From an uncultured Alistipes sp. (GTDB lineage Bacteria; Bacteroidota; Bacteroidia; Bacteroidales; Rikenellaceae), in NCBI GenBank assembly GCA_944321945.1, contig CALUNE010000002.1, positions 222,287-286,286 on the forward strand: a stretch of DNA of 64,000 bases, written 5' to 3'. Positions 1,338-33,227 of this stretch are shown piece after piece (the stretch's first letter is position 1; every line of letters begins with the position of its first letter). The notes below the pieces were generated by a model. The model saw nothing but the letters and a program-made list of their open reading frames with translations, was not told where the DNA came from and ran no database searches. Made by a program: the position numbers and the translations under genes.

Positions 1338-2540
1338 TTATCTGACGCGCAGCGAGCGGCCGATGCGCAGAATGGTTGTCGATTTGATCCCATTCAGCCG
1401 GCAAATGTTCGATACGGTGGTTCCGTAGCGGCGGGCGATGGCACCCAACGTATCGCCCGAGCGGATTTTGTGATAGCGCATGGCGGCCTTTTCGGCAGCC
1501 TCCTTCTTGTCCTGCTCTTCGTTGGCGATCTCGTCCTCGAAATCCTGTCCGGCATTGGAGTTGATGCTGAAGAAGGATTTCTTCAGGAGGAAGGTTTCGC
1601 GGCAGAGCATGCCGTTCTTGAAATCGATCAGCCGTTCGGGGTCGAAAGCCTGTCCGTAGTAGCGGGTTTCGAAATGGAGATGCGGGCCGGTCGAGCGACC
1701 CGTCGAGCCGCCCTTGCCGATGATGTGTCCGGCCTCGACCCAGTCGCCGGGTTTTACGAGCCGTTCCGAGAGGTGGCCGTAGTAGGTTTCCAGACCGTTG
1801 TCGTGGCGGATGATGACCAGGTTGCCGTATCCGCGGACATACTGCGAGATACGCACCCGTCCGCAGAAGGTTGCATAAACCGGTTCGCCCATTTTGAGCG
1901 GCAGGTCGACGCCCTGATGGCGGCGTCCGCGGCGGGGTCCGTACTTGCCGCGGGGATTTACGGCTCCGCGATAGGGATAGTGGTAGCTTTTCGTCGAATC
2001 GATCAGGTCGATGACCACCGACTGGGGCATGCCGGCGATGCTGACATCCTTATAGGGGAAAAGCGTGGTTGTGTCCCAGTATTTTTCGAAGATGGTGCTG
2101 TCCTTGGCCACGGCGCGGTTGCGGGCGTATTTCCAGGTGTTGTTGCCGTAGAGAATGACATAGAGGGCGTCATTTCCGGAGTTGAGCGTATCGATGACCG
2201 TCAGACCGGCGGTGTCGAACGTCGATTCGATCTCCTTGCGGCGCAGGCGGAGCTGCAGGTTGGCCACCGAATCTTCGGCGGCCTGTTTGGGATCCACCGC
2301 CGTCGAGGCCCCCGTTGAGCGGGAGGTTCGGGCTTCGAGCTGCGTCTGCATGTTGTCGAGCAGGGTTTGCAGCGAATCGATGGCGACGCTCTGCACGTCG
2401 GAGAGCCGGCGCAGCGAATCGGCCTCGGCCATTGCTTCGATGGTCTGTTCCTGGAGTTGGGCCCGTGTGGGACGGGGCGAACGGGCTTCGGCCGTAGCGG
2501 TCAGTGCGACGACCGCAAGGGGCAGCAGGTATTTTTTCAT
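1338..2540 (-). CDS. Secreted M23-family metallopeptidase with C-terminal LysM domain
   Basis: Predicted peptidoglycan endopeptidase or amidase activator. Residues 1-19 (MKKYLLPLAVVALTATAEA) form a Sec signal peptide. Residues about 25-105 are a helical, probably coiled-coil region. The M23/LytM domain covers about 185-300 and keeps the zinc ligands H208 and D212 (HQGVD) and the HLH motif at 287-289. A LysM domain (about 355-400, YHKIRSGDTLGAIARRYG) should bind peptidoglycan. A linker rich in E and K (about 330-355) joins the two. All visible zinc ligands are present, so an active peptidase is more likely than an inactive EnvC/NlpD-like regulator. It is the last gene of the minus-strand cluster from yicC, 99 bases after the DUF3109 gene. 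Confidence 0.9.
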   Translation of the reverse strand: MKKYLLPLAVVALTATAEARSPRPTRAQLQEQTIEAMAEADSLRRLSDVQSVAIDSLQTLLDNMQTQLEARTSRSTGASTAVDPKQAAEDSVANLQLRLRRKEIESTFDTAGLTVIDTLNSGNDALYVILYGNNTWKYARNRAVAKDSTIFEKYWDTTTLFPYKDVSIAGMPQSVVIDLIDSTKSYHYPYRGAVNPRGKYGPRRGRRHQGVDLPLKMGEPVYATFCGRVRISQYVRGYGNLVIIRHDNGLETYYGHLSERLVKPGDWVEAGHIIGKGGSTGRSTGPHLHFETRYYGQAFDPERLIDFKNGMLCRETFLLKKSFFSINSNAGQDFEDEIANEEQDKKEAAEKAAMRYHKIRSGDTLGAIARRYGTTVSNICRLNGIKSTTILRIGRSLRVR

Positions 2541-29369: not shown

Positions 29370-30578
29370 TCAGTCGCGGTCGAGGAAGAAGATCGGAATA
29401 TTGGCCAGAAAGACATCTTTGCCCGAGAGCTGCGGCCGTTTTTCGATCAGTTCGCTCAGCAGGATGTCGCCGATGACGTAATTGCTCTCCTCGCTGATGA
29501 ACTGTTCGTGGATCTTCGTGAAGCGGAGGATCTGCCGCACGTCGGTTTCGCGGTAACGGGCGTAGATCTTCAGCTGGATGTCGGTCGTGTAGTCGGGTTT
29601 TTCGATGTAGTTCATCTTCTTGTACTCGTAGCGGTAGTTGTTCAGCCGGGCCATGATGTCGCTCAGGATCGACGAGGCTGTCGGGAGACTTCCGGCCCCC
29701 TTTCCGAACATGAACTGCCGGTCGTAGCATTCGCCGCGGATCACCACGCCGTTGTACTCGTCGTCGACGCTGTAGATGTACTTCGAGGGGGTGACGAACT
29801 CCGGCATGACGAACATCGTGAAGTGCTCGTCACTGACCTTGACGACCTGGGCCACCAGCTTGATCTTCACGTTTTTTTCGCGGGCGTAGCGGATGTCCGA
29901 ATCGTGGATCGTCGAGATGCCGTAGGTGAAGATCCGCTCCGGAGCGACGTACGTGCCCAGTGCGTGGACCGTGATGATGACCAGTTTGAAGAGCGAATCA
30001 TAGCCTTCGATGTCGAACGAGGGGTCGCTTTCGGCGAAACCGAGCGCCTGGGCCTGGGCCAGCGCATTGGCATAGGAGTCCCGGTGGTCGAAGACGCGCG
30101 AGAGGATGTAGTTCGACGAGCCGTTGAGAATGCCCTTTACCTCGAGCAGCAGGTCGTTGTCGTAATACTCCTCGAGGTTGCGGATCACGGGAATCGAACC
30201 GCACGACGAGGCGTCGTACAGCAGTGCCACGCCGCGTGTTTTCTGGATGTCGATCAGCTCGGGGAGGTGGTGGGCCAGCATGGTCTTGTTGCCCGACACG
30301 ACGGGGATTCCGCGCAGCAGGGCCCGTTTGACGATGCTGTAGGCAGCCTCGGCATTGTCGATCACCTCGACGACCAGGTTGACGTTCTGATTGTCGAGGA
30401 TGTCGTCCACCGAGGTGGTGAAGAGCGACGGATCCACGGCGATCTTGCGGGGTTTGTGCGGGTCGCGCACGCAGATTTTCACGATCTCGGCGTGGGCGTT
30501 CTTCGATTTGCGCACCACTTCGTAGATGCCCTGTCCGACGACGCCGAATCCGAACAGTCCGATTTTGATTTTCGTCAT
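29370..30578 (-). CDS. hom: Homoserine dehydrogenase (monofunctional)
   Basis: Reduces aspartate semialdehyde to homoserine. 402 residues. N-terminal Rossmann start IKIGLFGFGVVGQGIYEVV, VSGNKTMLAHHLPEL, the substrate region LEVKGILNGSSNYILSRVF, and the catalytic-domain DPSFDIEGYDSLFKLVIIT with the expected Asp and Lys. It has no aspartokinase domain. The C-terminal 90 residues are an ACT-like or linker region of uncertain fold. Third gene of the metY-metX-hom operon, 40 bases after metX, so homoserine supply is placed under the same leader as methionine synthesis. Confidence 0.94.
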   Translation of the reverse strand: MTKIKIGLFGFGVVGQGIYEVVRKSKNAHAEIVKICVRDPHKPRKIAVDPSLFTTSVDDILDNQNVNLVVEVIDNAEAAYSIVKRALLRGIPVVSGNKTMLAHHLPELIDIQKTRGVALLYDASSCGSIPVIRNLEEYYDNDLLLEVKGILNGSSNYILSRVFDHRDSYANALAQAQALGFAESDPSFDIEGYDSLFKLVIITVHALGTYVAPERIFTYGISTIHDSDIRYAREKNVKIKLVAQVVKVSDEHFTMFVMPEFVTPSKYIYSVDDEYNGVVIRGECYDRQFMFGKGAGSLPTASSILSDIMARLNNYRYEYKKMNYIEKPDYTTDIQLKIYARYRETDVRQILRFTKIHEQFISEESNYVIGDILLSELIEKRPQLSGKDVFLANIPIFFLDRD

Positions 30579-30618: not shown

Positions 30619-31635
30619 CTATTGCTCCGCCTCGAAAGGCAGCAGCAGGGCGTTGAGTTGCTCGTATTCGACCAGGAAACCGTCGTGTCCGAACGGCGAA
30701 TCGATTTCGCGGTAGCGGCTTCCGGGGATTTGTTGGTTGAGGCGCCGCATCTCTGCCGGGGTGAAGATGATGTCGGTGGTGATTCCGACGATCAGCGTCC
30801 GGGCCTGGATCCGCTCCAGAGCAGCCTCTACCCCGTCCCGTCCGCGGCCGACGTCGTGCGTATCGAAGGCGTCGAGGATCGCGTGGTACGAATAGGCGTT
30901 GTAGCGCCGGCAGAGTTTCTCGCCCTGATACTGCTGGTAGGTGCAGGCGCGGTGTATGGCGGGTGCCTCCTCGCGATCCTGCTGCGTGAGGTTGTAGCCC
31001 TCCGGGCCGCGGTAGCTCAGCAGACCCAGGGCCCGGGCCGTAGCGAGCCCCTTCATGCCGGCATCGTCGCGCTCCTGACCGTAGGTCGAATCGGCCTCGA
31101 TGGCCATGCGCTGCGTCTCGTTGATGGCGATGTTCCAGGGCGAGGCCTTGGCGTCGGTGGCGATCAGCGCCAGCCGTTCGATCCGCGCGGGCTCCTCCAC
31201 GGCCCACTCCACAGCCTGGAATCCCCCGACCGAACTTCCGACCAGCAGTGCGATCCGCCCGATTCCGAGGGCATCGGCCAGCAGGCGGTGGGCCCGCACC
31301 ATGTCGCGGATCGTGAATGCCGGGAAGCTTCCGTACCAGGGACGCCCCGTGGCGGGGTTCACGTGCAGCGGGCCGGTGGTTCCGTAGTGCGATCCGAGGA
31401 TGTTGGCGCAGATCACGAAGTAGCGCTCCGGATCGAGAAACCGTCCCCGTTCCACCGTGTGGGGCCACCAGTCGGCGACCTCCGAATTGGCCGTCAGCGC
31501 ATGGCAGACCCACGCCACGTTGTCGCGAGCGGCATTCAGCCGGCCGTAGGTATGGTAGGCGATGCGCAGTTCGGGGAGCAGCACGCCCGATTCGAGTTCG
31601 AAAGGCTCCGGGGCCTGGTAGATCAACGGTTCCAT
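30619..31635 (-). CDS. metX: Homoserine O-acetyltransferase
   Basis: Alpha/beta-hydrolase that acetylates (or succinylates) homoserine. 338 residues. Substrate loop ELRIAYHTYGRLNAARDNVAWVCHALTAN, NILGSHYGTTGPLHVNPATGRPW, the nucleophile elbow LLVGSSVGGFQAVEWA (catalytic Ser), and the late Asp/His region (ITTDIIFTPAEM ... SPFGHDGFLVEYEQL). The acyl donor cannot be decided with certainty; pairing with metY favours acetyl. Lies 18 bases after metY. Confidence 0.95.
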   Translation of the reverse strand: MEPLIYQAPEPFELESGVLLPELRIAYHTYGRLNAARDNVAWVCHALTANSEVADWWPHTVERGRFLDPERYFVICANILGSHYGTTGPLHVNPATGRPWYGSFPAFTIRDMVRAHRLLADALGIGRIALLVGSSVGGFQAVEWAVEEPARIERLALIATDAKASPWNIAINETQRMAIEADSTYGQERDDAGMKGLATARALGLLSYRGPEGYNLTQQDREEAPAIHRACTYQQYQGEKLCRRYNAYSYHAILDAFDTHDVGRGRDGVEAALERIQARTLIVGITTDIIFTPAEMRRLNQQIPGSRYREIDSPFGHDGFLVEYEQLNALLLPFEAEQ

Positions 31636-31653: not shown

Positions 31654-32940
31654 TTATTCGACGTGGGTGAAGGCCTGTTCGAAATCCTCGATCAGGTCCT
31701 CGACATTCTCCAGACCGACCGAGATGCGCAGCATGGTCGGTGTGACGCCTGCGGCGGCCAGATCGGCCTCGCTCAACTGCTTGTGGGTGGTCGAGGCGGG
31801 ATGGGTCACCACCGTGATCGAGTCGCCGATCATCGTCATGTTGGCCGCCAGATGCAGCGACTCGACGAACCGTACGGTGCTTTCCAACGTACCCTTGAGT
31901 TCGATGGTGAAGACGGCCGACGAACCGAAACGATAGTATTTGCGGGCGTTGTCATGGCTCGGGTGGGTATCGAATCCGACGTAGCTGACGCTTTGGACCT
32001 TCGGATGGAGGCGGCAGAATTCGGCCAGCCGGCGTGTCGACTCCACCTCCTGACGCACGCGCAGCGAGAGGGTCTCCAGCCCGATCAGCATCAGGTACGA
32101 ATCGAACGGCGAGGGGCAGCAGCCCATGTCGCGCAGGCCGTCGACGCGACACTTGACGATGAAGGCCGCCGCGCCGAACGCCTCGTGGAGATTCAGTCCG
32201 TGATAGCCCTCCGAGGGGCCGTCGATCTGGGGGAATTTGCCGTTGGCCCAGTTGTAGTTTCCGCCGTCGACGATCACGCCGCCCATCGACGTGCCGTGGC
32301 CGTTGATCCACTTTGTGGCCGAATCGACGACGATGTTGGCCCCCCACTCGAAGGGGTTGCACAGATAGCCCGCCGCGCCGAACGTGTTGTCGACCACCAG
32401 CGGAACGTCGCGCCGCCGGGCCAGTTCGCCCAGCGCTTCCAGATCTGCGACGGCGCACGTCGGATTTCCCATGCTCTCGACGTAGAGGGCCTTCGTGTGC
32501 TCGTCGATCAACGCTTCGAACGATCCAGGCTCTTCACTCGGGGCGATGCGGCAGTCGATGCCCAGTTTGCGCAGTGTGATGCGGAACTGGTTGTAGGTTC
32601 CGCCGTAGAGGAACGGCGAGGTGACGATGTTGTCGCCCTCCTGGGCCAGCGAAAGCACCGTGACCAGAATGGCCGACATGCCCGACGAGACAGCCAGGGC
32701 GCCGACGGCACCGTACAGGGCGGCGATCCGCTCTTCGAAGGCGGCCGTCGTGGGGTTCTGCAGCCGTGTGTAGATGTTTCCGGCCTCGCTCAGTTCGAAG
32801 AGCCGGGCGGCGTGGTCGCAGCTCCGGAAACGATAGGCCGCCGTGGGCCAGATGGCAATGCCGCGCGAACCGGTCGGTTCGTCGGGGTTGAGTCCGGCAT
32901 GGATCTGCCGGGTCTCGAATCGGTACTTTCGGGTATCCAT
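31654..32940 (-). CDS. metY: O-acetylhomoserine sulfhydrylase (aminocarboxypropyltransferase)
   Basis: PLP enzyme of the Cys/Met metabolism fold-type I family, making homocysteine from O-acetylhomoserine and sulfide. 428 residues. YRFETRQIHAGLNPDEPTGSRGIAIWPTAAYRF, YTRLQNPTTAAFEERIAALYGAVGALAVSSGMSA, the PLP lysine in VDSATKWINGHGTSMGG, and the C-terminal RISVGLENVEDLIEDFEQAF are all canonical. I start at the ATG at 32940; the frame stays open upstream through the terminator hairpin, which is not coding. First structural gene after the Met leader/attenuator. Confidence 0.95.
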   Translation of the reverse strand: MDTRKYRFETRQIHAGLNPDEPTGSRGIAIWPTAAYRFRSCDHAARLFELSEAGNIYTRLQNPTTAAFEERIAALYGAVGALAVSSGMSAILVTVLSLAQEGDNIVTSPFLYGGTYNQFRITLRKLGIDCRIAPSEEPGSFEALIDEHTKALYVESMGNPTCAVADLEALGELARRRDVPLVVDNTFGAAGYLCNPFEWGANIVVDSATKWINGHGTSMGGVIVDGGNYNWANGKFPQIDGPSEGYHGLNLHEAFGAAAFIVKCRVDGLRDMGCCPSPFDSYLMLIGLETLSLRVRQEVESTRRLAEFCRLHPKVQSVSYVGFDTHPSHDNARKYYRFGSSAVFTIELKGTLESTVRFVESLHLAANMTMIGDSITVVTHPASTTHKQLSEADLAAAGVTPTMLRISVGLENVEDLIEDFEQAFTHVE

Positions 32941-32963: not shown

Positions 32964-32994
32964 AAAAAAATCCGACTTTTTTCAAAGCCGGATT
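32964..32994 (-). terminator. Attenuator terminator hairpin before metY
   Basis: On the minus strand, an 11-bp stem AATCCGGCTTT/AAAGTCGGATT (32994-32984 with 32979-32969, one G-U pair), GAAA loop and seven U. It lies between the Met leader peptide stop (33019) and the metY ATG (32940), where a terminator makes sense only as a regulated one. Its 5' arm (ATCCGGC, 32993-32987) can pair instead with the leader (GCCGGGT, 33029-33023). Confidence 0.88.
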
Positions 32995-33018
32995 GTGTCG
33001 TTTCAGCACACGAAAAAA

Positions 33019-33120
33019 CTACACCCGGCGAACTCGGCTGCACATGACCATGACCATCATCATCGACATTCCGCGGGTGATTCCGTCGGTATATCCGAGA
33101 TATGTGTGTCGGGCAGCCAT
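33019..33120 (-). CDS. Methionine-rich leader peptide of the metY-metX-hom operon
   Basis: 33 codons from ATG at 33120 to TAG at 33019. The peptide has seven Met in 33 residues; the core MSMMMVMVM (codons 18-26) holds six in nine. It lies after a good promoter and before an intrinsic terminator, upstream of methionine genes. Pairings read from the sequence: segment 1 CACCCG (33079-33074, before the Met codons) with segment 2 CGGGTG (33027-33022, at the stop codon); segment 2 GCCGGGT (33029-33023) with segment 3 ATCCGGC, the terminator 5' arm. A ribosome stalled on Met codons would mask segment 1 and let 2:3 prevent termination. This is the classic trp-type logic; the regulation is inferred, not shown. 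Confidence 0.85.
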   Translation of the reverse strand: MAARHTYLGYTDGITRGMSMMMVMVMCSRVRRV

Positions 33121-33154
33121 CGTATCGGTCTGAGGTTTTCGTGTTGTTCAAGTG

Positions 33155-33185
33155 CAAATATAGAAAAAGATTTTAATAAATGCAA
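33155..33185 (-). promoter_or_regulatory. Promoter of the met leader and metY-metX-hom
   Basis: On the minus strand TTG (33185-33183), a 20-base spacer and TATATTTG (33162-33155), a full Bacteroidetes promoter match. The leader peptide ATG lies 35 bases after the -7 box. Confidence 0.8.
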
Positions 33186-33196
33186 TATTGCAAAAG

Positions 33197-33227
33197 AAAA
33201 GCTCCGCATTTTCGATGCGGAGCTTTT
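33197..33227 (-). terminator. Terminator after the RND/TetR operon
   Basis: 13-bp stem AAAAGCTCCGCAT/ATGCGGAGCTTTT (33197-33209 with 33215-33227) with a 5-base loop; on the minus strand it is followed by a T-rich tract. It separates the tetR-ended efflux operon from the met promoter immediately downstream. Confidence 0.85.

Follow-up and report, generated by a model that had tools for sequence, protein, structure and literature searches.

The metY-metX-hom operon of an uncultured Alistipes sp. is very probably controlled by a methionine-specific, ribosome-mediated transcription attenuator, as judged from a 64,000-nt stretch of its genome (contig CALUNE010000002.1, positions 222,287 to 286,286 of the forward strand; hereafter the window) and from comparison with related genomes. 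On the minus strand of the window, a promoter-like site, a Met-rich open reading frame (ORF) and an intrinsic terminator sit between a TetR-type gene and metY (Table 1). An attenuator of this kind had been proposed in the first-pass annotation of this DNA, and it now receives comparative support from the Met run, the position of the leader stop codon, an antiterminator pairing between segments 2 and 3 (2:3), the terminator and the operon. The genes behind the leader have a role in methionine biosynthesis, as this class of attenuator requires; metX scores below the curated cut-offs of both of its best families, with 336.3 bits for TIGR01392 (cut-off 500) and 309.9 bits for NF001209 (cut-off 331).

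Table 1. Features of the metY leader region, its operon and the neighbouring gene in the window, with one class B leader from a related genome.
Feature	Coordinates	Strand	Basis or remark
Promoter-like site, Bacteroidota type	33155..33185	minus	TTG 33185-33183, 20-nt spacer, TATATTTG 33162-33155 (sequence)
Leader ORF, MAARHTYLGYTDGITRGMSMMMVMVMCSRVRRV and stop	33019..33120	minus	33 codons, seven Met counting the start
Last Met codon, proposed decisive stall site	33043..33045	minus	Eight codons before the stop
Segment 1, better-supported candidate, TGCAGCCG	33035..33042	minus	Directly after the last Met codon; replaces CACCCG of the first-pass annotation
Segment 2, GCCGGGTGTA	33020..33029	minus	Last leader codons and stop; pairs with segment 1 or 3
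Segment 3, terminator 5' arm, AATCCGGCTTT	32984..32994	minus	Aligned-leader pairing tests
Segment 4, terminator 3' arm, AAAGTCGGATT	32969..32979	minus	Followed by T run to 32964
metY, O-acetylhomoserine sulfhydrylase	31654..32940	minus	TIGR01326, 561.5 bits (cut-off 495.1)
metX, homoserine O-acetyltransferase-like	30619..31635	minus	Best families TIGR01392, NF001209
hom, homoserine dehydrogenase	29370..30578	minus	NF004976, 307.7 bits (cut-off 205); PF00742
TetR-type gene	33862-33254	minus	PF00440; directly upstream, same strand
Hairpin 3' of TetR-type gene, likely its own 3' end	33197..33227	minus	Tail CTTTTG
Class B leader (example)	L044 241-319	minus	One of 36 rows of alignment A3

Because the TetR-type gene has a hairpin of its own, the leader looks like a separate unit. 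The 46-nt stretch containing that hairpin folds at -23.3 kcal/mol, and a terminator scan of the window did not flag it. A promoter had been placed at 33155-33185, and a promoter-like site is indeed present there in the sequence; its elements match TTG plus TAnnTTTG, which we take to be the consensus of Bacteroidota-type promoters. Of the 24 leaders of the class described below, 22 have a TAnnTTTG box that starts 119-191 nt ahead of the leader stop, and L118, one of the remaining two, consists of 47 nt of sequence only. Rfam gave no matches at gathering score in the window; SAM-I (RF00162) was found neither in the sequence of this genome (77.65% complete) nor, as a SAM aptamer, in the window.

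The leader peptide of the window ends in MSMMMVMVMCSRVRRV, directly before the stop codon. The 33-codon leader with seven Met codons reported earlier is present where it was placed, and its in-frame Met run is beyond chance. Leaders of related genomes were assigned by eye to a class A when a Met-rich ORF was followed by a terminator, with spacing and pairings not among the criteria; the class A ORF qualifies as a leader by its reading frame and several Met codons, and its translation is predicted. Counts are given for 24 class A leaders, excluding L017 and L018 (upstream sequence identical to L016), L019 (truncated) and L022 (a near copy of L021). The leader frame is free of stops over its last 26 codons (fewer in L118) in all 24, with stops found in 23/24 and 3/24 leaders in the other two frames. 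Met accounts for 23.7% of codons in the leader frame versus 0.5% and 0.2% out of frame, a Met content that is partly the product of selection, since the class was chosen by eye for a Met-rich ORF. Counting back from the stop, an ATG stands at codon -8 in 24/24 leaders and at -10 in 23/24.

Segment 2 (GCCGGGT) starts 16 nt after the A of the ATG at codon -8. A ribosome reaches about 12-15 nt downstream with a codon in its A site; with the ATG fixed at -8, a ribosome stalled there would thus end just short of the antiterminator strand. Between this Met codon and the stop, residues vary at unpaired bases and the paired bases are kept. The residue at codon -7 is C, R or F and that at -1 is V, G, M or L; codon -3 encodes R, S, C or G, yet is always NGC, and codon -2 is CGG in 24/24 leaders.

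The terminator (AATCCGGCTTTGAAAAAAGTCGGATT at 32994-32969, plus the T run) lies between the leader and metY, and it covaries. In alignment A1, which has 26 rows rather than 24 because L019 and L022 are included, 94.4% of its cells are paired and six pairs are changed on both sides; none of 500 shuffles was as high on pairing, both-side changes or covariation score, and 54 were as high on pair types. The intrinsic terminator annotated at 32964-32994 is therefore present and beyond chance. The 2:3 antiterminator, also anticipated in the first-pass annotation, brings together GCCGGGT (33029-33023) and ATCCGGC (32993-32987); as it uses the 5' arm of the terminator, the two structures would exclude each other. 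Its support comes through invariance and duplex strength, the pairing being near-invariant in class A. Over the six core positions of A1, columns 53-57 are paired in 26/26 leaders and column 58 in 25/26; five Watson-Crick columns show no variation or almost none. In 22/24 leaders, no more than 9 of 500 shuffles match the duplex; for L026 and L091 the numbers are 59 and 53 of 500, respectively. The pairing varies little: one pair is changed on both sides, a level reached by 156/500 shuffles, and some slid versions have a higher covariation score. The alignment of relatives that had been suggested as a check thus shows the Met run, stop position, 2:3 pairing and terminator to be kept and the terminator to covary, with little covariation in 2:3.

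Three mutually exclusive pairings had been proposed, and the terminator and 2:3 are the two that are conserved; the 1:2 pairing did not hold in the form given. CACCCG (33079-33074), the original segment 1, is complementary to CGGGTG (33027-33022) in the window, but across A1 its pairing stays at shuffle level (53.8% of cells paired, with shuffles at 53.7%), and pairing improves to 61.5% when the partner is shifted by +2 columns. A hairpin of TGCA(A/G)CCG with CGG(G)TGTA (33042-33035 with 33027-33020) has 78.4% of its cells paired, one conserved mismatch included, a level reached by 2/500 shuffles. Its covariation score is 0.049, lower than that of three among six slid versions, and departures from pairing are mostly unpaired cells. 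Modest support therefore makes TGCAGCCG a better candidate for segment 1 than CACCCG, and it would fall within the footprint of a ribosome stalled at -8. The leader RNA of the window folded alone was unremarkable (z -1.88; 11/200 shuffles as good).

The mechanism that follows is our inference, both for the start of transcription and for translation, ribosome stalling, timing relative to the polymerase and methionine as the signal. Transcription would start downstream of TATATTTG and a ribosome would translate the leader. With enough charged Met-tRNA, the ribosome would reach the stop codon and cover segment 2, so that segments 3 and 4 would form the terminator; once the ribosome had gone from the stop, segment 2 could fold back onto segment 1. 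When charged Met-tRNA is short, the ribosome would stall in the ATG run and, with the last ATG in its A site, would cover segment 1 and leave segment 2 free. Segments 2 and 3 would then pair while segment 4 is still to be transcribed, and the polymerase would continue into metY-metX-hom. When a ribosome was placed at the last Met and the RNA was cut off ahead of arm 4, folding gave 2:3 in 24/24 leaders, a result that is weak alone, since a shuffled segment 2 still gives at least five pairs to segment 3 in 50% of folds. Folding with the ribosome on the stop gave the terminator in 23/24, and ribosome-free leaders gave 1:2 in 20/24. The equilibrium fold of the full-length stalled RNA, arm 4 included, prefers the terminator in 21/24 leaders, and the switch could therefore only work kinetically.

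A covariance model of class A leaders (R1) scored at least 70 bits in 25 of 180 genomes of the genus. The next genus matches, with 48.7 bits (G167) and 45.1 bits (G075), both proved on inspection to have Met leaders, and the weaker ones inspected (L206-L208 and L296-L299, at most 37.3 bits) showed none. In the order, besides the window's own genome, a strong match was found in 1 of 295 genomes (G318, 72.1 bits), again before metY; ten weaker matches inspected there (L210-L217, L219) showed no Met leader before a methionine gene. At one of these, L219 (match at 1501-1634, minus strand), we observed a Thr/Ile-rich leader ending in MTIQHTTSIIMGSTSMSTITTTALYD before its stop, with a terminator and a next gene that is aspartokinase-like by eye. 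Viewing of 90 metY upstream regions of the genus (L009-L098) assigned 23 to class A, 27 to a second class, B, and 40 to neither, the last count referring to the sequence directly upstream of metY; at some of these 40, metY lies close behind another gene. Within the window's own genome, the R1 search gave one match only (E 0.01). A mechanical scan for Met attenuators across 400 kb of this genome plus the window returned 42 rows, among which only the metY leader was convincing by eye; a Met-rich row at L275 (MMMIDMS) was set aside by eye.

In the 19 other class A loci checked for gene order (L099-L101, L108, L110, L117, L118, L129, L228, L289-L295 and L300-L302), the leader is followed by metY, metX and hom in turn, with hom cut by the end of the stretch in L228. 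In five genus genomes among these (L289-L293), a class A leader stands before a metY only 48-52% identical to that of the window, with metX and hom 74.8-92.5% identical. Judging from these identities, metY has been replaced by a roughly 50% identical copy while leader, metX and hom stayed, suggesting that the leader follows the operon and not the gene copy. In G075 (L205 1501-2160), a class A leader precedes an operon relic in which only metY residues 1-49 and hom residues 292-399 are recognisable, and no metY was found in that genome at E 1e-60.

With the TetR-type gene immediately upstream in the same orientation, the terminator might simply be the ordinary terminator of that gene and the short ORF an accident, with no regulation involved. 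We give this reading hardly any credence: the gene has its own hairpin, the promoter-like box follows, divergent genomes retain the ORF together with its spacing and the pairings, and the weak genus matches to R1 that were inspected come without a Met leader. A directly ligand- or tRNA-binding RNA, either a riboswitch that went unrecognised or a T-box-like element, to which the presence of SAM-I before metY in relatives could point, deserves next to none: neither the window nor any of 20 metY loci taken from the genus and from class A relatives matched Rfam at gathering score, and the aligned leaders show little conservation outside the end of the ORF and the terminator.

Two further readings accept a role for the leader peptide. 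The peptide itself might sense methionine, SAM or another ligand within the ribosome as a nascent-peptide arrest switch, consistent with the R found at codon -2 in 24/24 leaders and at -5 in 21/24; this is very unlikely, as residues -7, -6, -4, -3 and -1 vary while the paired bases stay, which favours RNA pairing over a conserved arrest peptide, and the invariant parts are the ATG codons and the paired bases. A dual attenuator of sulfur supply, responsive to both methionine and cysteine, is suggested by Cys codons at -7 in 15/24 and at -9 in 13/24 class A leaders and by the poly-Cys leaders before metY homologues elsewhere (22/42 loci with at least six Met plus Cys), but Cys is absent near the stop in L013, L015, L021 and L118, and TGC at -7, being part of segment 1, may owe its conservation to pairing. 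We consider a dual sensor unlikely, and the well-conserved leader most likely acts as a classical-type attenuator whose methionine specificity and lineage are new.

Class B leaders of metY end in MRMCR before a stop codon that lies inside a hairpin (GTGCC-GNTA-GGCAC), and a second, covarying hairpin follows; no intrinsic terminator was seen. Across 36 class B sequences, 44 cells are changed on both sides; none of 500 shuffles attains this number or the covariation score, and 86/500 reach the count of six pairs so changed. The class B model (R2) matches 67 of 180 genus genomes, none of which is among the 25 class A genomes scoring at least 70 bits. Elsewhere in the order, R2 found class B in 0 of 247 genomes, and the class B pattern gave two chance-like matches in 296 genomes of the phylum. 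Ten class B loci searched against Rfam by E-value gave matches only to a tRNA, a TPP riboswitch and, below threshold, Phe_leader, all of them away from the class B leader itself.

Of 42 metY loci from the phylum and neighbouring groups, 22 are preceded by a short ORF whose last 16 residues include six or more Met plus Cys, often as poly-Cys; L145 was dropped from the set for its short upstream sequence, and Chlorobi, Melioribacter or cyanobacteria-labelled records contribute a few of its loci. The reverse-strand control of the 42 loci never exceeded four. Poly-Cys leader ORFs, such as one ending in GQQPCCMCCCCCCC before its stop, were seen upstream of metY homologues at L141-L144, L146, L158, L166, L174, L176 and L178. 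Among other Bacteroidales, 2 of 29 loci pass the same strict criterion, one of them the class A relative L228, with none passing in the reverse-strand control (maximum 3); the criterion therefore does not show leaders generally in other Bacteroidales.

SAM-I stands before metY at 12 of 20 loci scanned from this set of 29, and many of the SAM-I-bearing metY loci also carry a Met-rich short ORF behind the riboswitch. SAM riboswitches had been named as the better-known regulators of such genes; this contrast is right, but the two are not an either/or. Among 30 SAM-I loci from 99 Bacteroidales genomes, 19 have the gene at least 140 nt away, and 16 of these 19 contain a short ORF with at least two Met in its last ten residues, as do 0/11 loci with shorter gaps and 3.3% of shuffled and reverse-strand controls; these cut-offs were set post hoc, and by the first ATG alone 15/30 qualified. 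Examples in which SAM-I is followed by a Met-rich ORF end, such as TMPLMPMCMR and a stop, are L331, L325, L320, L312, L308 and L314. Rho and translational coupling are candidate modes of action for class B and the tandem ORFs. Taken together, class A, class B, poly-Cys and SAM-I tandem leaders raise the possibility, to which we lend a little less than even confidence with the 2/29 result weighed in, that Bacteroidota widely read methionine supply via short Met/Cys-rich leaders, with differing designs in front of the same genes. This wider pattern is more surprising, and less certain, than the attenuator in the window.

Upstream of a Melioribacter metY (L150, VEPI01000001.1), a Met-rich leader ending in MMAMMCMSDLMREGII before its stop, in letters unrelated to class A, was found within 230 nt of the gene, and it apparently represents an independent methionine attenuator. 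Its 8-bp antiterminator (GTGAAGGG/CCCTTCAC) has an energy of -15.0 kcal/mol (0/1000 shuffles), and its terminator one of -15.3 kcal/mol. Segment 2 starts 16 nt after the penultimate Met codon, compared with the last one in class A, the penultimate codon having been chosen post hoc. Rfam gave no match at L150.

Classical leader-peptide attenuators are known from the trp, his, thr, leu and phe operons, and bacterial methionine control is usually ascribed to SAM riboswitches, T-boxes and repressors. Work by Lopatovskaya (2010; doi 10.1134/S0026893310010164) may list attenuators of Bacteroidetes. Like the classical systems, class A has a leader ORF enriched in codons for the amino acid under control, proposed alternative pairings among segments 1-4 and a terminator before a biosynthetic operon; it differs in its methionine specificity, in belonging to no Rfam family at gathering score and in a segment 2 that overlaps the leader stop codon. 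SAM-I likewise controls methionine genes and stands before metY, but binds SAM through an aptamer. In Xanthomonas, SAM-I is reported also to sense uncharged initiator tRNA (PMC7270179), so that methionine supply is read through tRNA charging as proposed here, but by direct tRNA binding and translational control, with no leader peptide in the abstract. Poly-Cys leader peptides are described in Actinobacteria (PMC1262725); like class A, they place a run of sulfur amino acids near the leader stop, but the amino acid is cysteine and there is no conserved terminator hairpin, and that study saw no conserved RNA structure upstream of actinobacterial methionine operons.

A study from 2010 (PMC2965389) knew of leader peptides in no groups other than Proteobacteria and Actinobacteria, to which it added a histidine leader from Firmicutes. 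For B. thetaiotaomicron, short ORFs that resemble leader peptides are mentioned (PMC7366714), and the transcriptome of Flavobacterium psychrophilum gave strong clues for leader-peptide attenuation before amino-acid operons (PMC9723704), in a report whose main text does not contain the word methionine. The view that such a design would be unusual in the phylum is thus only partly borne out: leader-peptide attenuation as such was already indicated there (PMC9723704), whereas we found no description of a methionine case. The available portions of PMC4833913 and PMC1273637 hold nothing on methionine leader-peptide attenuation, and our literature search, in which subscription literature is thinly covered and which is no proof of absence, found no methionine leader-peptide attenuator.

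The class A leader is a compact candidate switch in a dominant gut phylum with little-studied RNA regulation. A conserved Met-codon attenuator would show that methionine, which is also the start amino acid, can be sensed via charging of its elongator tRNA. If true, the tandem of SAM-I and a Met leader would constitute a two-input gate for SAM and charged Met-tRNA. Related genomes carry different solutions at one locus, metY.
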